A DNA stretch of 64,000 bases from Clostridiales bacterium CHKCI006 (GTDB lineage Bacteria > Bacillota_I > Bacilli_A > Erysipelotrichales > Coprobacillaceae). Below are positions 51,713 to 60,208 of the stretch, piece after piece (position 1 is the stretch's first letter; the number at the start of each line of letters is the position of its first letter). The translations under genes were made by a program, and so were the position numbers. Below the pieces are notes generated by a model. It searched no databases. It was not told the DNA's origin and saw only the letters and a list, made by a program, of their open reading frames with translations. The DNA is taken from NCBI GenBank assembly GCA_900018345.1, contig FCNA01000026.1, positions 1 to 64,000 of the forward strand, in the 5' to 3' direction.

Positions 51713-52120
51713 AGGATAGCGAAAAAAACATAAATTATAACATTTTAAATTTTGCTTTTATCTAAAAATAGTGATCTGAAAGATAGCTTGTCAACCTATT
51801 TGCTTTATTTGACCACACTTGTTACCATGCCTCCAGCAGGAGGCACAAATGATGATGAAAGATTTTTCTGTACAAATAAGTTGTCCTATAGTAATGTTAG
51901 TCTGGAAGCACCGGCACTCTACAGAACACGATGTAACGTCTGGAGATCCTGAGCCCGAACACTTATCAGTCGTCGCTATCCTTCATGCACAAATGATTGG
52001 CAGCTTTAAAGCCTGGATATTTATGAATACACCCACTTTATTAGGGTTCTCACAGGGATAGCAGTCAATGCCGATCTTTCCATCTTTTCAACCCTATTCA
52101 TAACAGAAAGGAGAAAAACA
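51713..52120. other. Gap without a supported gene
   Basis: About 400 bases between the feo promoter and the IS256 fragment. Short open frames exist but none has a ribosome-binding site or a recognisable motif. Confidence 0.4.
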
Positions 52121-52803
52121 GGGGCGGCGAATTTGAAAACGTAGCCATTCTTGTGGCAATTGCGGTCAATGAGGACGGATACCGTGAGGTTCTGGGTGCC
52201 GCCGAGGGCATGAAGGAGGACAAGTCCAGCTGGGTCAGCTTCTTCCAGTGGCTGCGTGGCCGAGGTCTGGACGGTGTGAAACTCATTGTTGGAGACAAGT
52301 GCCTTGGTATGCTGGAGGCCGTGGGAGAAGTATTCCCCGAAGCCAAGTACCAGCGCTGTACCGTCCACTTTTACCGCAATGTATTCTCGGTCACGCCTCG
52401 CTCCAAGGTGAAGCTGGTGGCAAAGATGCTCAAGGCGGTCCACGCCCAGGAAAGCAAGAAAGCAGCCCGGGAAAAGGCCAAAGCTGTGGTGGAAGAACTG
52501 CGCTCCATGAAACTGAAAGAGGCGGCCAAGAAGGTAGAGGATGGCATTGAGGAGACGCTGACCTACTGCGATTTTCCCAGCGAGCACTGGACTCGCATCC
52601 GTTCCAATAACGTTATTGAACGACTCAACCGGGAGATCCGCCGCCGTACCCGTGTGGTGGGCAGTTTCCCGGACGGCAATTCCGCCCTTATGCTGGTCTG
52701 TGCCCGGCTGCACCATGTGGCCGGCACCCAGTGGGGCAACAAGAAGTACATGAACATGAAGCACCTGGAGGCCGCCCTTGAAGATGCCTCCATTGCTGGC
52801 TGA
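52121..52803 (+). pseudogene. IS256-family transposase, C-terminal half
   Basis: An open frame from the truncation point: EFENVAILVAIAVNEDGYRE, then KLIVGDKCLGMLEAVG (second catalytic Asp), YQRCTVHFYRNVF and NNVIERLNREIRRR (catalytic Glu). The first catalytic Asp and the DNA-binding N-terminus are lost, so it cannot transpose by itself. Confidence 0.85.
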
Positions 52804-52875
52804 CTTCACTCATGCCAGACCCTGCAAACCATTTTGCGAAAAATACTTGACACTACCAAAATACTTGACACTACC
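52121..52875 (+). mobile_element. IS256-family element, 5'-truncated copy
   Basis: From GGGGCGGC at 52121 to the element's right end the sequence is nearly identical to 59359-60095, with seven substitutions that I can see in 737 bases. The left half is missing. The right end carries AAAATACTTGACACTACC twice in tandem (52840-52857 and 52858-52875). Confidence 0.85.
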
Positions 52876-52921: not shown

Positions 52922-52949
52922 AGGATGGCCGGCGAAAGCTGACCATCCT
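52922..52949 (-). terminator. Terminator of the RiPP operon
   Basis: AGGATGG (52922-52928) and CCATCCT (52943-52949) form a stem followed on the minus strand by TATTTTG; it overlaps the peptidase stop codon. Confidence 0.6.
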
Positions 52950-53430
52950 AAATCTGTTTTCCACATTTCTGGAAACAGAATGCCAAGCTAAAATGAATCC
53001 TATTCCAGATTATTAAAATATGCCGTCTTAATGGAATAACATGTATCCATATTTTTTTAAAGAACCAATCAAAAAAATTTCTGTGTCCTAGCCATCGCCC
53101 TTTTCTCTGAATACCATATACCTTCCCACAGATTCGTTCCACAGAAATAGGTCCCTCGACTACACTCTGTGCATCACCAATAGCATAAAAATTTTGCCCT
53201 CTAATTTTCTGAATCCTGTGTAGTACAAATTGTCCCTGTATCCGCTGATACAAAACAATATCCCCAGTTCTAAGTTCATTCTTTTCACACTTTCGGAGAA
53301 TAACGAAGTCTCTTCCTCCACAAAGAAAGGGTGTCATACTATTGCCAGAAACAGGGATTGCAATTTGTCGGTTTTCTTGAAGAAGAAAGAGCATTTCCTT
53401 CAAATAGCTCTCGTTATCTACAACTTTCAT
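52948..53430 (-). CDS. S24/S26-type signal-peptidase-like protein
   Basis: A 160-residue protein of the S26 signal peptidase fold. SGNSMTPFL gives the nucleophile S31; GDIVLYQR and FVLHRI follow, with H71 in the place where bacterial enzymes have lysine, so a Ser-His dyad like that of SipW/ER-type peptidases is likely; AIGDAQSV is the third motif. No N-terminal membrane helix, but a hydrophobic helix near residues 130-150. In this operon it probably removes the RiPP leader or trims the exported product. Its start overlaps the ABC gene by 17 bases. It is the last gene of the operon. Confidence 0.75.
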   Translation of the reverse strand: MKVVDNESYLKEMLFLLQENRQIAIPVSGNSMTPFLCGGRDFVILRKCEKNELRTGDIVLYQRIQGQFVLHRIQKIRGQNFYAIGDAQSVVEGPISVERICGKVYGIQRKGRWLGHRNFFDWFFKKIWIHVIPLRRHILIIWNRIHFSLAFCFQKCGKQI

Positions 53431-55153
53431 ATTCTTCTATAATCCTCCCATTTTCCACTCTATATACACGACTGCACATCGTAAGTACCGACAGTCTGTG
53501 GGTAGCAAAAATACAAATAGAATTAGGATTCTTTTCCCGAATATGCGCCATTATCTGAACTCCTGTCTTTTCATCAAGAGCAGAAGTTGCCTCGTCAAGC
53601 AAAATCACCGGTGCTTTTTTTAATATAGCTCTGGCGATGGCAATCCGCTGTGCCTGTCCTTCTGACAATCCTTTCCCTTTTTCTCCGATATAAAATTTAA
53701 GTCCTCCCGGCAGAGCTTGAACAAAGTCCCAGGCACACGCCATCTTTAATGCATCAATTAACTCATCATTTCCAGCATCCGGCGCAGTCATTCTTAGATT
53801 TTCTTCAATAGTCCCGGAAAAAAGCGTATTTCCCTGGGGTACATAAGCAATACAGTCTCTAGTTGATGCACAAAGTGGTACTATTTTTTTGCTTATTGTC
53901 CTCACTCCAACCTGCCCTTTTGAAGCAGAAACAAGTCCTAATATAATTCGCATCAACGTTGTTTTTCCAGATCCTGAAGGACCAATTAGTGCCACAAATT
54001 CCCCTTTTCCGACTTTCATGGAACAATCCGTCAGTATTGGTTGTCCTGACCGATAAGAAAAAGAAATTTGGCTTAGAAACAGCTCCACTCCTTTTTTTAT
54101 TTCATTTTCTTCCACTTTGCAAAGCCGATCTTCTTTCTTTATTGTTTCCTTTGGCAACTCTGTCACTTCCATCACTCGTCTGGCTGAAGTAGCTGTTGAA
54201 ACAGCTGAGGGTACTAGATGTACCAGTGCTTTAAAATCTGAGGATAGGTTTCTTGACAGTTGCAAAAACAGAGTCATCGTTCCATAGGTAATATACCCCG
54301 TCCAAAGACGATAAATGCCCCACCCCATAGAAATAAAAGAAACTATAAATCCGACAACAGACATTAAAGTTGATGTTTTAACGGAAAATTCATTATAAGC
54401 CATTGAAGTATCCATAGCATCCTTTTGTATCGTTTTCAATTTATCGTCAAAAGAGCCAATTAGGCCAAATGCTTTTAGAATTTGAATATTCTGAAAGGAT
54501 TCTTCCGTAAATTCTGTGATGCGGCTGCTGGCTGCACGCATTTTCTGATTAAACTGCCGCATTCGCCCCAGAAAACTCCGGGACAGAATCACTGTTACTG
54601 GAGCACTGCACAGTGCAATAGCTGCCATCCATGGATCATAATATAAAAGAATAAAGAGACTGCCCATAAATCTTACTGTTTTCGTTAAAAGGGAGGGAAT
54701 CCATCCCAGAATACTTTTTGACACCGTAGTTACATCCCCGCTCAAACGGTTCAGCAAATCTCCACTATGAAATTCTGCAATTTCTTCCCATTTGGCCTCC
54801 ATCACCTTTAGATAAACATCCTCATAAATATCTTGGTATACTTTCAAACTAATACGTGCCAGCATACGGCTCATTACAGCATGAAATCCAATTCCCAGAA
54901 GACCCGAAATTACAAAGATACAGGCTGTTGTCACCAACTGCTGGGGCTGATACTGGGTCACAGCGTCAATCATGTATTTAGACGCAAGGCTTCCTGCCAA
55001 TCCCATTAAAGTTCCTAATATTCCTACAAAAACATAAAACATCACTGCTGCCCGATATTTTATAATATAATTGCTCATCCAGCGGATCTCAGTAACTATT
55101 TCCCGTAGCATAGCATAGTTCAAGCTTGGTGACTTGAACTTTTTTCTACTCAT
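53414..55153 (-). CDS. ABC exporter of the RiPP cluster
   Basis: A 579-residue half-transporter with six membrane helices followed by an NBD: Walker A GPSGSGKTT, signature GLSEGQAQRIAIARA, Walker B with glutamate VILLDEATSALD and H-loop ATHRLSV. It is a complete homodimer-type exporter. No C39 peptidase domain is fused, which fits a separate peptidase gene next door. I start at ATG 55153 (AAGGAAG ahead), overlapping the radical SAM stop by eight bases; the longer frame lies inside that gene. It should export the finished peptide. Confidence 0.88.
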   Translation of the reverse strand: MSRKKFKSPSLNYAMLREIVTEIRWMSNYIIKYRAAVMFYVFVGILGTLMGLAGSLASKYMIDAVTQYQPQQLVTTACIFVISGLLGIGFHAVMSRMLARISLKVYQDIYEDVYLKVMEAKWEEIAEFHSGDLLNRLSGDVTTVSKSILGWIPSLLTKTVRFMGSLFILLYYDPWMAAIALCSAPVTVILSRSFLGRMRQFNQKMRAASSRITEFTEESFQNIQILKAFGLIGSFDDKLKTIQKDAMDTSMAYNEFSVKTSTLMSVVGFIVSFISMGWGIYRLWTGYITYGTMTLFLQLSRNLSSDFKALVHLVPSAVSTATSARRVMEVTELPKETIKKEDRLCKVEENEIKKGVELFLSQISFSYRSGQPILTDCSMKVGKGEFVALIGPSGSGKTTLMRIILGLVSASKGQVGVRTISKKIVPLCASTRDCIAYVPQGNTLFSGTIEENLRMTAPDAGNDELIDALKMACAWDFVQALPGGLKFYIGEKGKGLSEGQAQRIAIARAILKKAPVILLDEATSALDEKTGVQIMAHIREKNPNSICIFATHRLSVLTMCSRVYRVENGRIIEEYESCR

Positions 55154-56315
55154 CTGCTTCTTCCTTCTTTTCCAGCCCCTGAAGCATTTTGATTGCTTCT
55201 GCATATGCCGCCTTTGCTGACTCGGACATCTGACAAAGATAATCTGGCCGCTGGTCAAAACGTCCAGTCTCCGACTGACAGATGGCTGCACAAATATTAC
55301 AAAACTGACTATGTTTACAAGTTTTACATTCATAAGGAAGACGGATTTTAGAAACTTCGTCTTTTATCTGTTTCCAAGCCTTATCAAATCCCAATTTCCG
55401 TACATCTGCCTCCGGATATGTCATTAACCCACAAGGCCGCATTTTCCCATTCCAGGTAATCCAGAAAGAATGACGGCCTGCACCGCATCGGCTTTCGTCT
55501 CCCTGGGCATTCCCCAGATGCTGTATTTCGTAGGGACAACCTGTTCCAGTTTTTAGAAATCTTCGTCCCTTTTCTATAAATTCTTCTCGGCTATCAAACA
55601 GAAGATAATCTCTCTTTACCATATATTTCCCGGCCTCTTCTGCTGAAAGTCTCGCTACGTTCTCACCGCTGTGCCCTTGTTTCAAGCGAATAGGTGGAAA
55701 TAGATATGGAGTCATCTCAATCAGAGAGGTCTGACTTTTATCAAACTCATAAATTTTTTCTATATCATGGCAATTATAGGTTGTCAATACAGTTGTTGTA
55801 CGCACAGAAATCCCCATTGAAATAAGTTTCCGCACTGTATCTGTCACTTTCCTCCATGCTCGTCTTCCGCATAAATTCTCGTAAGTTTCTTCTGAAGCTC
55901 CATAAATAGATACATTGACTCTGGCCGGCGGATACTTTTTGAAACAGTGCTCAATTTCTGAAGTCAACATAGAACCATTAGTATTAATCACCAAGCGAAA
56001 CCCCATCTGACTCAACGCTTCATATAATTCCACAAAGTCCTCACGCACCATTGCCTCTCCTCCAGTTAAAAGCAGATAGAGAAGTCCGGCCTGTTTTGCC
56101 TCCTTTGCGATATCCAGCCAATCTGATACTGATAATTCTTTTTCTTTCCACTCGTCACTGTTTTCTTGTTCATGCACATAGCACATTTTGCAGCTAAAAT
56201 TGCACCGGCCAGTCAGTTCAAATGTTCCGTTTACCGGGCTGCCTGCCCTTGCCGCTTTCTGTGACAAGTACCAGCTGATGGCAGCTTCATGATTAATATC
56301 GTCTCTTTTTTTCAT
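55146..56315 (-). CDS. Radical SAM/SPASM peptide-modifying enzyme
   Basis: A 389-residue enzyme. The radical SAM cluster motif is CNFSCKMCY (C38, C42, C45), followed by LLLTGGEAMVREDF (the GGE SAM-binding motif). The C-terminal SPASM domain shows CGAGRHSFWITWNGKMRPCG and, further on, CKTCKHSQFCNICAAIC plus a last cysteine, enough for two auxiliary 4Fe-4S clusters. Such enzymes install thioether or C-C crosslinks in RiPP precursors. AAGGAGTACTTCAAG precedes the ATG, which lies within the end of the kinase gene. It is the probable crosslinking enzyme for the six-Cys precursor. Confidence 0.92.
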   Translation of the reverse strand: MKKRDDINHEAAISWYLSQKAARAGSPVNGTFELTGRCNFSCKMCYVHEQENSDEWKEKELSVSDWLDIAKEAKQAGLLYLLLTGGEAMVREDFVELYEALSQMGFRLVINTNGSMLTSEIEHCFKKYPPARVNVSIYGASEETYENLCGRRAWRKVTDTVRKLISMGISVRTTTVLTTYNCHDIEKIYEFDKSQTSLIEMTPYLFPPIRLKQGHSGENVARLSAEEAGKYMVKRDYLLFDSREEFIEKGRRFLKTGTGCPYEIQHLGNAQGDESRCGAGRHSFWITWNGKMRPCGLMTYPEADVRKLGFDKAWKQIKDEVSKIRLPYECKTCKHSQFCNICAAICQSETGRFDQRPDYLCQMSESAKAAYAEAIKMLQGLEKKEEADE

Positions 56316-57207
56316 CTTGAAGTACTCCTTCTTTTTCCAGAAATAACTTTAAAAACTCTGCTGCCGAAGCATCTGGTAGACATTCATAGATATATACTGG
56401 TACAGTCCTAAGTATTTCCGCCAGAAGTCTTATCACTATTTCCATTCCCTTAGTATCCCAAATATCCACTGCACACTCGGACAACAGTGCTTTTATCGCT
56501 TCCAGCGGTACTGGAGTCCAAACTCTGTTTTCCCTGCCTTGCCGAAGGATTATCACTGCTGTAAGAGGAATAGTACAATTCAAAGCAATCCCGGAAGTAC
56601 CGCAAAATGGAAGTCCATGGGCCATTCCTCTTCCATTTTCACAACTTAAAATCACGCGGTCTCCATTTATAATTTCTACAATAGGATATCTCCTCTTCCA
56701 CAGGTCAGCCTGAGTTGACTTTCCTGTCCCTGACGGAGCTGAAAAGACAATTCCCTGATTCTGAAAATTAATTAGGGATGCATGAAGAATCACTCTTTTT
56801 CGGTGAACCATTAAATATTCGAACCCAGCCATGGTCAATAGTTGCTTTTCCGTCAGATATATCTCCTCTTTTCTCCCACTTTGAGCATGTATAAATACGG
56901 GAAATACATTCTGGCTTTCCTGTTTCAGCGTGATTCGACTCCCCCATAAAAAATCCCCACCTGTGTCTAGTACTCCCTGATAGCGATATATCTGTCCCTG
57001 CACCTCTAAAATAATACATCTTTCATCCTGATAGCAAATCTTACCATCTTTTGGAAACGAATCCTCTGTTACGTGGAACAAAAGATCCACTCCCTGCTTC
57101 GGCTCGGTTTCAAAAGGTACAGATACTTTTTCCTTCTTCAAAAAGATTGGAGGTTCTAAAAAAAAATTGATTCCAATACCGCCGATACAATATGCATACT
57201 GATTCAT
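56293..57207 (-). CDS. HPr-kinase/PEPCK-like protein of the RiPP cluster
   Basis: A 304-residue P-loop protein of the HprK/PEP-carboxykinase-like group common in RiPP clusters. Walker A is APSGTGKS at residues 157-164; INGDRVIL and LPFCGTSGIALN follow, as in kinases that phosphorylate the C-terminal serine of some lasso precursors (PadeK, ThcoK). The N-terminal 150 residues form a beta-rich domain without known motif. Its ATG directly follows the precursor stop with no gap, and the precursor ends in serine, which makes it the likely substrate. The end overlaps the radical SAM gene by 23 bases. Confidence 0.82.
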   Translation of the reverse strand: MNQYAYCIGGIGINFFLEPPIFLKKEKVSVPFETEPKQGVDLLFHVTEDSFPKDGKICYQDERCIILEVQGQIYRYQGVLDTGGDFLWGSRITLKQESQNVFPVFIHAQSGRKEEIYLTEKQLLTMAGFEYLMVHRKRVILHASLINFQNQGIVFSAPSGTGKSTQADLWKRRYPIVEIINGDRVILSCENGRGMAHGLPFCGTSGIALNCTIPLTAVIILRQGRENRVWTPVPLEAIKALLSECAVDIWDTKGMEIVIRLLAEILRTVPVYIYECLPDASAAEFLKLFLEKEGVLQDEKKRRY

Positions 57208-57495
57208 TTAAGATAACCCGATATATGACTCATTGCCGTTTTCCATCATGATTGGTACATGATAGCAGTAGAAATAACTATCACAAACGCTACAATCACC
57301 AATTAAAACACAATCAAAATCTTCATTGTATGCCGGCTCACCCTTGCCACCTTGCCAATCGTCACCCTCTACCATTTCACAAGGAAATCTATCATCCGAA
57401 ATTCTTGTCGTTGAAATAAACCCACACGTTGCCAGTGCTGACTTAAATGCTAATTTTTCAAAAACAATTTCAGGTTTCTTATACTTTTTTTTCAT
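57208..57495 (-). CDS. RiPP precursor peptide, six-cysteine
   Basis: A 95-residue peptide. The leader MKKKYKKPEIVFEKLAFK has the K-K-Y-x-K-P-E-I pattern I associate with precursors in Clostridia. Cysteines lie at residues 24, 39, 62, 68, 71 and 77; the densest part is C62-C77 (CVLIGDCSVCDSYFYC). Acidic and glycine residues fill the middle and the last residue is serine (ESYIGLS). GGAGGTAAAT precedes the ATG; an in-frame upstream start lacks one. It directly precedes the kinase and radical SAM genes. The core limits are inferred, not known. Confidence 0.75.
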   Translation of the reverse strand: MKKKYKKPEIVFEKLAFKSALATCGFISTTRISDDRFPCEMVEGDDWQGGKGEPAYNEDFDCVLIGDCSVCDSYFYCYHVPIMMENGNESYIGLS

Positions 57496-57689
57496 ATTTA
57501 CCTCCATTTCCGCCCGACTACGTCGATCGGACACAAATATTTAATCAAAATTCAAATTTATTATTATCCTAAGCGATTTTAGAATAATACTAACGAATTT
57601 GTTTTTATCATAAGTAATATCTGCAATATCAATATTTTGTTCGATTAATAACAAATTTTATTTTCACACTTTTCTTTACCTTCTGTTTC
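57496..57689 (-). promoter_or_regulatory. AT-rich leader before the precursor gene
   Basis: A very AT-rich 194-base gap between the PqqD and precursor genes. It probably holds a promoter for high precursor expression; TATGAT near 57610 (minus strand) is a candidate -10, but no paired -35 stands out. Close to the precursor, CCGA and TCGG arms around TCGACGTAG could form a small leader hairpin. Confidence 0.35.
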
Positions 57690-57974
57690 TCATTTTTTCT
57701 TTTCTTCCACAAGCAGGACCCCTTGTCTGTGAACAGATTCTATAAAATCTTCTATATCTTTTCTAGCTGTACCACTGTCAATCTCAAAATCTCTGCAAAG
57801 GGCTTGGGTCAGCTCTTCTTCATCTGCATCATGTTCCTGTAGGTACCGAACCAGAAATGCGCCTGTCTCATTCACAGCAATAATCCCTTGAAAACGTATT
57901 ACTTCCTGGCCGGTAGGCACAATAATATGCTCCCCCAGAATTTCTCTTATAACATACTGCTTTGATATCTTCAT
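57690..57974 (-). CDS. PqqD-family RiPP recognition protein (RRE)
   Basis: A 94-residue PqqD-like protein with the winged-helix RiPP recognition element: YVIREILGEHIIVPTGQEVI, then IIAVNETGAFLVRYLQE and TQALCRDFEIDSGTARKDIE, ending in a charged tail. RREs bind the leader peptide and present it to the modifying enzymes. AGAGGAAAGCATAG precedes the ATG. It sits upstream of the precursor in the same direction, with a small broken frame twelve bases before it. Confidence 0.88.
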   Translation of the reverse strand: MKISKQYVIREILGEHIIVPTGQEVIRFQGIIAVNETGAFLVRYLQEHDADEEELTQALCRDFEIDSGTARKDIEDFIESVHRQGVLLVEEKKK

Positions 57975-58232: not shown

Positions 58233-58507
58233 CTATGTCAAGGGGTTCAGAAGGCTGAAACAAGGCTTAAAAATCTTTCTTGTAATCTGGTTGCCGAACC
58301 TGGATTTCCAGGGTGTAGATTGGTCCAGATTTCTTGTTCCAAGGACCAGTGTTCCGGGATTTCTTCCTGCCCTCATCAGCAGCTTTTCCATATCTTCGGG
58401 CAGATGCTGGCCGTCTGCGTCCATAATTCCCACCGCGCTATATTCCCACAATTCTGCCCGTATATACTGAAGGGCAGTTTTAATAGCCTCACCTTTCCAT
58501 TGGTTTT
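58233..58507 (-). pseudogene. Family 2 glycosyltransferase, internal fragment
   Basis: The minus strand reads GEAIKTALQYIRAELWEYSA, VGIMDADGQHLPEDMEKLL, then LVLGTRNLDQSTPWKSRFGN and QITRKIFK. The DADGQH block is the metal-binding motif of dolichyl-phosphate-mannose-like GT2 enzymes. Both ends are missing: one side joins IS3 debris and the other ends at LLNPLT. Confidence 0.75.
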
Positions 58508-58746
58508 CTCTACTCTCTTCCAAAAGCAACTGGAAGCGCATGGAATACGGCATAAGGTCATCCGTCCTTTTACTCCCCGTCATAATGGGAAGGTAGAACG
58601 CAGCCACAGGAAAGACAATGAACGCTTTTACGCAACACATCTCTTTTATTCCTTTGAGGATTTTGCGAAACAGCTAAAACTCTATAATCGCAGGGATTAT
58701 AATAACTTTCCTATGCGGCCTCTGGGATGGAAAACACCCAGTGGAT
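58508..58746 (+). pseudogene. IS3-family transposase, C-terminal fragment
   Basis: The plus strand reads FSTLFQKQLEAHGIRHKVIR, PFTPRHNGKVERSHRKDNER, FYATHLFYSFEDFAKQLKLY and NRRDYNNFPMRPLGWKTPSG. This is the rve-domain end of IS3-type (IS150-like) transposases, including the catalytic glutamate in GKVERSHR. The start and orfA are absent. Confidence 0.8.
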
Positions 58747-58791: not shown

Positions 58792-60095
58792 ATGGTTTGC
58801 AGCCCTCTGGTAGAATGAAGTCACGACACACCATTCTGAAAGGAGACAGCAAACCATGTCCGAAAAGATTGTACAGCTTAACGAGGAAGTAATCAAGGGT
58901 CAAATCAAAGAACTGGTACGAGGCAGCGTAGAGGAAACCCTCAACGAACTGCTGGAGGTCGAGGCGGAGAAGCTGACCCAGGCGGCCCGGTACGAGCGCA
59001 ATGAGCAGCGTCAGGGCTATCGCAGCGGCCACTACAACCGAAATCTCACCACTACATCCGGGGACGTTACCCTGAAGGTGCCCAAGCTCAAGGGAATCTC
59101 CTTTGAAACCGCCATCATTGAGCGGTATCGCCGCCGGGAGAGTAGCGTGGAAGAAGCCCTCATTGAGATGTACCTGGCAGGCGTATCCGTTCGGCGTGTG
59201 GAGGATATTACCGAGGCCCTCTGGGGCAGCAAAGTCTCTCCCTCTACTATAAGTGAACAAGAAAACGTATGTCCACATCGAGGATTGGCGGAACCGTCCT
59301 CTGCAAGGCGGACGATATCCGTATGTCTATGTGGATGGGATCTATCTGCACCGTAACTGGGGCGGCAAATTTGAAAACGTAGTCATTCTTGTGGCAATTG
59401 CGGTCAATGAGGACGGATACCGTGAGGTTCTGGGTGCCGCCGAGGGCATGAAGGAGGACAAGTCCAGCTGGGTCAGCTTCTTCCAGTGGCTGCGTGGCCG
59501 AGGTCTGGACGGTGTGAAACTCATTGTTGGAGACAAGTGCCTTGGTATGCTGGAGGCCGTGGGAGAAGTATTCCCCGAAGCCAAGTATCAGCGCTGTACC
59601 GTCCACTTTTACCGCAATGTATTCTCGGTCACGCCTCGCTCCAAGGTGAAGCTGGTGGCAAAGATGCTCAAGGCGGTCCACGCCCAGGAAAGCAAGAAAG
59701 CAGCTCGGGAAAAGGCCAAAGCTGTGGTGGAAGAACTGCGCTCCATGAAACTGAAAGAGGCGGCCAAGGAGGTAGAGGATGGCATTGAGGAGACGCTGAC
59801 CTACTGCGATTTTCCCAGCGAGCACTGGACTCGCATCCGTACCAATAACGTTATTGAACGACTCAACCGGGAGATCCGCCGCCGTACCCGTGTGGTGGGC
59901 AGTTTCCCGGACGGCAATTCCGCCCTTATGCTGGTCTGTGCCCGGCTGCGCCATGTGGCCGGCACCCAGTGGGGCAACAAGAAGTACATGAACATGAAGC
60001 ACCTGGAGGCCGCCCTTGAAGATGCCTCCATTGCTGGCTGACTTCACTCATGCCAGACCCTGCAAACCATTTTGCGAAAAATACTTGACACTACC
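58792..60095 (+). mobile_element. IS256-family element, near-complete but frameshifted copy
   Basis: Subterminal inverted ends are visible: ATGGTTTGCAG with TGAAGTCA (58792-58823) against the complement of 60039-60070. The outermost bases present at the right end (AAAATACTTGACACTACC, 60078-60095) have no counterpart on the left, so the left tip is missing or replaced. It lies in the same direction as the truncated copy at 52121. Confidence 0.8.
58856..60041 (+). pseudogene. IS256-family transposase with a small deletion
   Basis: The N-terminal frame from ATG 58856 (GAAAGGAGACAGC ahead) includes the HTH region and GVSVRRVEDITEALWGSKVS, PSTISE. Near 59253 the frame breaks, and the second frame continues KKTYVHIEDWRNRPLQGGRY, YVYVDGIYLHR (catalytic Asp), LIVGDKCLGM (Asp) and NNVIERLNREIRRR (Glu). 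The break fits loss of five bases between two GAAC repeats. Otherwise about 395 codons, a normal length. Confidence 0.85.
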
Positions 60096-60208
60096 ATCAA
60101 ATGACGAAAAGTGGTTAAGTATCAGCTACATGCCCAATAGTCTAACTATCTACATTTCCTTTGACAATAACTGAAAGAGATAACGGAATAGCAAAGTCAG
60201 CCTAGCCA

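Follow-up and report, generated by a model that had tools for sequence, protein, structure and literature searches.

Does the HPr-kinase-like gene that follows a small, serine-ending precursor gene in Clostridiales bacterium CHKCI006 act on the very tail of that peptide, in a RiPP cluster that also encodes a radical SAM enzyme? The window, meaning the whole stretch of DNA that was analysed, covers 64,000 nucleotides (positions 1 to 64,000 of contig FCNA01000026.1), and the features on which the question turns are the following.

52948..53430, minus strand: archaeal-type signal peptidase I-like protein (SpI), candidate leader peptidase; Pfam Peptidase_S24 over cut-off
53414..55153, minus strand: MsbA-type ABC exporter, ATG start placed at 55153 (longest ORF from 55333); Pfam ABC_membrane and ABC_tran
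55146..56315, minus strand: radical SAM/SPASM maturase, 389 aa, CxxxCxxC and C-terminal Cys cluster; Pfam Radical_SAM E=5e-25, SPASM weak
56293..57207, minus strand: HPrK-like kinase, 304 aa, with His142, P-loop GTGK163S164T and NGD183R; AlphaFold, PDB fold matches, active-site alignment
57208..57495, minus strand: precursor peptide, 95 aa; direct reading, leader-HMM 38.8 bits
57211..57213, minus strand: Ser95 codon TCT, proposed phosphorylation site; direct reading, Ser kept in 72/78 unique relatives
57421..57495, minus strand: leader MKKKYKKPEIVFEKLAFKSALATCG; leader alignment A2, match E=3e-10
57690..57974, minus strand: PqqD-like RiPP recognition element (RRE), 94 aa, presumed binder of the YxxP leader; Pfam PqqD E=9e-14

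The junction between precursor and kinase genes was read directly. The precursor translates from the minus strand as MKKKYKKPEIVFEKLAFKSALATCGF...NESYIGLS*, so Ser95 is indeed its last residue, and its TAA stop (57210-57208) touches the kinase ATG (57207-57205) with a gap of 0 nt. The original prediction had drawn attention to this abutment. It is real, but has no special meaning and is not conserved: in 35 close same-strand pairs among relatives, the gap ranged from -40 to +100 nt, which rules out the zero-gap junction as a signal and leaves only tight operon packing. The radical SAM gene and the end of the kinase gene overlap by 23 nt. In the leader MKKKYKKPEIVFEKLAFKSALATCG, a YxxP motif is followed by an Ala-rich end before a Cys; YxxP is what the RREs of lasso and linear polyphosphorylated peptide (LPP) systems bind. 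An Ala-rich stretch before Cys is a typical signal-peptidase cut, and the leader is likely removed at such a site, predicted after the Ala-rich end. Pfam and NCBIfam gave no match above cut-off for the precursors.

If the kinase acts on the peptide's end, the serine should matter more than what surrounds it. Kinase relatives were gathered from the family, from 84,980 named genomes (80 loci) and from the order, and a leader profile was built from candidate precursors by using no more than their first ~34 residues, the leader pattern being chosen by eye. This leader-only profile retrieved 84 precursors at 20 bits or more in kinase-bearing loci, 78 of them unique. A C-terminal Ser was found in 72 of the 78, and in 56 of the 62 that were divergent (last 30 residues less than 50% identical), counts which apply to kinase-bearing genomes since the loci were collected via the kinase. 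By comparison, of the 877 long ORFs in these loci 49 (5.6%) end in Ser, and the enrichment, 56/62, has a binomial P of about 3e-63. The six exceptions (tails GINASA, YINSSI, QIFSST, TIFGSY, TNPFSA and ATGYSA) all have Ser at position -2. Thr never substitutes for the terminal Ser, the single Thr-ending tail having a preceding Ser, and the other tail positions are variable. The invariant C-terminal Ser that was foreseen for precursor homologues is thus nearly complete. Both codon classes encode it (TCN 67 times, AGY 5 times), which indicates that the amino acid is conserved rather than the DNA. Together with the precursors lying far from any kinase gene, described below, this rules out translational coupling or codon bias as the origin of the terminal Ser. 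Because this serine is kept in otherwise very different relatives that are accompanied by the kinase, the C-terminal residue is probably the one that the kinase tags.

A partly independent check was obtained by running the leader alignment, blind to kinases, on 311 genomes of the order. Besides one marginal match, 11 genomes contained the leader, and all 11 carry a kinase of the window family, ten being window-type (E below 1e-60) and one, G030, more divergent (E=1e-43). A draw of 392 genomes of the phylum added zero new leader-bearing genomes, and no kinase-free genome with the leader was found among the 311 or the 392. Since leader and kinase always co-occur, there is no kinase-free control; radical-SAM loci with no kinase nearby do not provide one either, because their genomes hold a kinase elsewhere. 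Precursors distant from the kinase also end in Ser, for example three on contig C17 of G282, four on C74 of G041 and one on C35 of G035, and suggest that the kinase may serve precursors in trans. On C74 of G041 (locus L176), one radical SAM gene lies amid the four precursors with no nearby kinase, the kinase being on another contig.

HPrK-type chemistry in RiPPs is not restricted to C-terminal serines. PadeK, ThcoK, SyanK and PsmK are related RiPP kinases acting on a C-terminal Ser (PMC9266682), and LppK, the kinase of the LPPs, the nearest linear family to have been characterised, acts on Ser3 of the core rather than on the tail, which took this chemistry beyond lasso peptides in 2026 (PMC13381572). 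The LPP system (LppA/K/B/S/D/N) has in common with the window cluster an RRE, an HprK-like kinase, an archaeal-type signal peptidase, an MsbA-type exporter, a YxxP leader and the lack of a macrolactam cyclase, and its leaders are cut by the SpI peptidase (PMC13381572). All four proteins of this set have counterparts in the window, with SpI and MsbA models scoring below curated cut-offs. LPPs differ by the Ser3 site, an NTP transferase, the leader YxxPxVLxHQxIxFETxxS, and no reported radical SAM enzyme (PMC13381572). The window cluster, in contrast, encodes a radical SAM/SPASM enzyme, its precursor ends in a conserved Ser, and its kinase belongs to a separate clade (GKSTQ, NGDR); its precursor leader has the YxxP of the LPP motif and none of the rest, and an NTP transferase (PF14907) is absent from its core cluster.

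The kinase tree, built for 112 kinases by a quick method with SH-aLRT support only, placed the window kinase within a group of 93, mostly radical-SAM-linked (support 97). Its nearest relatives there, from Mediterraneibacter, Lachnoclostridium and gut clostridia, all accompany precursors ending in Ser. LPP-like kinases have a separate place in the tree and their clusters contain NTP transferases; the last residue of their precursors is W, D or I, and a Ser is kept instead close to where the core begins, in keeping with the Ser3 site of LppK (PMC13381572). Terminal and core-start serines are therefore split by kinase clade, and it follows that the modification-site rule tracks the kinase group. 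Such LPP-like clusters, with kinase, NTP transferase, SpI and RRE, short precursors and a Ser near the core start, also occur in the same bacterial family as the window (L048-L057).

An unlikely alternative, though the best placed, is that the HPrK-like protein targets a Ser or Thr inside the core for phosphorylation, and that the terminal Ser is retained for some other purpose, for instance because the exporter, the peptidase or the radical SAM enzyme recognises it. It draws on the Ser3 site of LppK (PMC13381572) and on the core-start Ser of the LPP-like precursors in the genomes examined. Against it, towards the end of the precursors no second Ser position is conserved to a degree close to that of the terminal one. 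Moreover, the LPP-like clusters have the same types of RRE, SpI, exporter and kinase yet no terminal Ser, so that these components do not by themselves demand it.

The preferred reading, modification of the terminal Ser, requires that the neighbour be an active enzyme of the HPrK type. Nothing above curated cut-offs was returned for it by Pfam or NCBIfam, HPrK models included, and PDB sequence searches with the kinase or with a kinase profile gave no HPrK match, only chance matches. Its AlphaFold model (mean pLDDT 93.3, alignment of 56 relatives) had HPr kinase/phosphorylase (HPrK/P) structures 1jb1 and 1kkl as best PDB fold matches (E about 2e-6, probability 1.00), PEP carboxykinases being the next-best solved structures. 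By motif, His142, Lys163, Ser164 and Asp183 align with His140, Lys161, Ser162 and Asp179 of HPrK/P, the active-site residues given for the E. faecalis enzyme (PMC9399212), and H142, G162, K163, T165, N181 and D183 are invariant in 56 kinases that are about 22-39% identical to the window kinase. Going by the modelled structure, the neighbour is an HPrK-fold protein, and it retains the key catalytic residues. It shares the fold and the His, Lys, Ser and Asp active-site residues with HPrK/P, and differs from it in its N-terminal part, in a Gly replacing one Asp, and in its context, a RiPP cluster rather than HPr.

The replaced Asp is the main caution on the reaction. Of the His-Lys-Asp-Asp set, the window kinase has His142, Lys163 and, at 183, the second Asp; Gly takes the place of the first, while ThcoK reportedly cannot do without either Asp (PMC9266682). 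The NGDR motif, in which Gly stands where HPrK has the leading Asp of its DD pair, is shared by nearly all radical-SAM-linked kinases; NDDK is the motif of most LPP-like ones. One could therefore imagine that the protein is not a protein kinase and performs another ATP-driven change at the C-terminal Ser, such as carboxylate activation or nucleotide addition, all the more as a Ser is needed at the very end, where hydroxyl and free carboxylate are both on offer. We regard this as improbable: the protein retains its proton-transfer Asp, its His and its P-loop Lys, all characterised RiPP members of the fold in the literature searched are Ser kinases, and some relatives have an NTP transferase of a kind that acts on phosphorylated Ser. 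That the protein is a non-catalytic chaperone or regulator and the Ser an incidental lineage feature, as its divergent sequence below curated cut-offs might suggest, is hardly credible given the six residues invariant in 56 kinases and a Ser kept in tails otherwise less than 50% identical.

We conclude, with a probability of about 0.77, that the cluster is a RiPP pathway in which the precursor has its C-terminal Ser modified, most likely phosphorylated, by an HPrK-type kinase, alongside a radical SAM/SPASM enzyme acting on a Cys-rich core. Judging from sequence and fold, phosphorylation of Ser95 is the most likely reaction. The RRE (57690-57974) would bind the YxxP leader, the radical SAM enzyme would then alter the Cys-rich core, and the kinase would next move phosphate onto Ser95, after which the signal-peptidase-like protein may cleave past the Ala-rich leader end and the ABC protein export the product; we infer the order of these steps, the number of phosphates and the leader cut.

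Some radical-SAM clusters have a gene for an NTP transferase within 6 kb. In pseudomycoidin biosynthesis, an enzyme of this kind works on the terminal Ser once it is phosphorylated (PMC9266682), which supports phosphorylation as a first step in the clusters that bear one. We lean towards the broader view of a large, as yet unnamed RiPP group in gut Lachnospiraceae, Oscillospiraceae and Erysipelotrichales, made of radical-SAM-modified peptides with a (poly)phosphorylated C-terminal Ser, some of them decorated by NTP transferases, and with one kinase serving precursors elsewhere in the genome. In the window genome, the only solid copy of the NTP transferase (PF14907) is on contig C82, beside a different cluster. 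This contig (G000 C82) holds two further HPrK-like clusters (L031, L032) with GIGKTTQ kinases of a second radical-SAM-linked clade and large Gly-rich putative precursors, and in L032 genes for a radical SAM enzyme and an NTP transferase lie close by. In this second clade (L031, L032, L042, L045-L047), the precursors are less certain and end in S, S, A, Y, Q and H; given such mixed ends, we do not claim the terminal-Ser rule for it. Related kinase loci were also seen in records labelled Bacteroidales (L114, L124), a label that reflects either transfer or a binning error; L114 has three YVAAC-type precursors ending in VKS.

Two other known systems come close to the window cluster. In paeninodin-type phosphorylated lasso peptides, an HPrK-type kinase likewise accompanies a precursor that is phosphorylated on its conserved C-terminal Ser, and an RRE binds the [Y/W]xxP leader. 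The window cluster differs from them by its radical SAM enzyme and by His-Lys-Gly-Asp where His-Lys-Asp-Asp is reported, and no macrolactam cyclase or B2 (lasso) leader peptidase is present, every sizeable ORF in 52948-57974 being assigned to other families. The SynChlorMet cassette (NCBIfam ScmC, ScmE, ScmF) also pairs radical SAM/SPASM proteins with ScmC, to which these kinases are weakly related. The window kinase scored 16.3 bits against the ScmC model (E=0.005, cut-off 125; L073 reached E=8e-8) and the ScmE model gave 75 bits (cut-off 400); with scores far below the ScmC, ScmE and ScmF cut-offs, the window was not assigned to SynChlorMet.

The original prediction was that the kinase phosphorylates the tail of a radical-SAM RiPP and so extends the chemistry beyond lasso peptides. 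The conserved Ser and the HPrK fold support its first half, and the target of the HPrK-type kinase here is very probably the C-terminal Ser of a radical-SAM RiPP; the extension itself was already made by the LPPs (PMC13381572). What is new, as far as the literature searched shows, is the pairing of an HPrK-type kinase with a radical SAM enzyme, and the C-terminal Ser rule across many gut bacteria. Two chemistries that have been studied apart in that literature, modification by radical SAM enzymes and phosphorylation of the tail by HPrK-type kinases, would be joined in one system. The combination of a YxxP...AxC leader and a terminal Ser beside a GKSTQ/NGDR kinase provides a sequence rule for unannotated gut clusters, Ser95 is an easily tested single-residue prediction, and sister kinase groups directed at the core start or at the very end bear on how such a kinase chooses its serine.

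Weak matches of the RRE were to lasso PqqD chaperones and to the PqqD of the HPr-rel-A system, the top NCBIfam match of the exporter was TIGR02204 (MsbA_rel), below cut-off, and the SpI-like protein scored 40.3 bits against TIGR02228 (sigpep_I_arch, cut-off 51.85). The cluster is flanked by two IS256-family copies (Mutator-type transposase; 52117-52858 and 59355-60096), in the same orientation and 98.9% identical over 742 nt, in a composite-transposon-like layout. Erysipelatoclostridium sp. An173, which belongs to another genus, has a copy of the cluster that is 98-99% identical (NZ_NFKR01000070; L033/L058), and the identity continues into the IS flank at 96%. Such a near-identical cluster in another genus, with a shared IS flank, points to recent transfer. 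A plasmid search with the cluster gave no match. The An173 copy is without about 157 nt upstream of the precursor (window 57500-57656). In the window, the left IS256-family copy is truncated and the right one reads as two ORFs. A 78-aa ORF with a marginal PepSY-like match (58223-57987) lies between the RRE gene and a glycosyltransferase family 2 remnant (58233-58640), which is cut by the mobile-element region.
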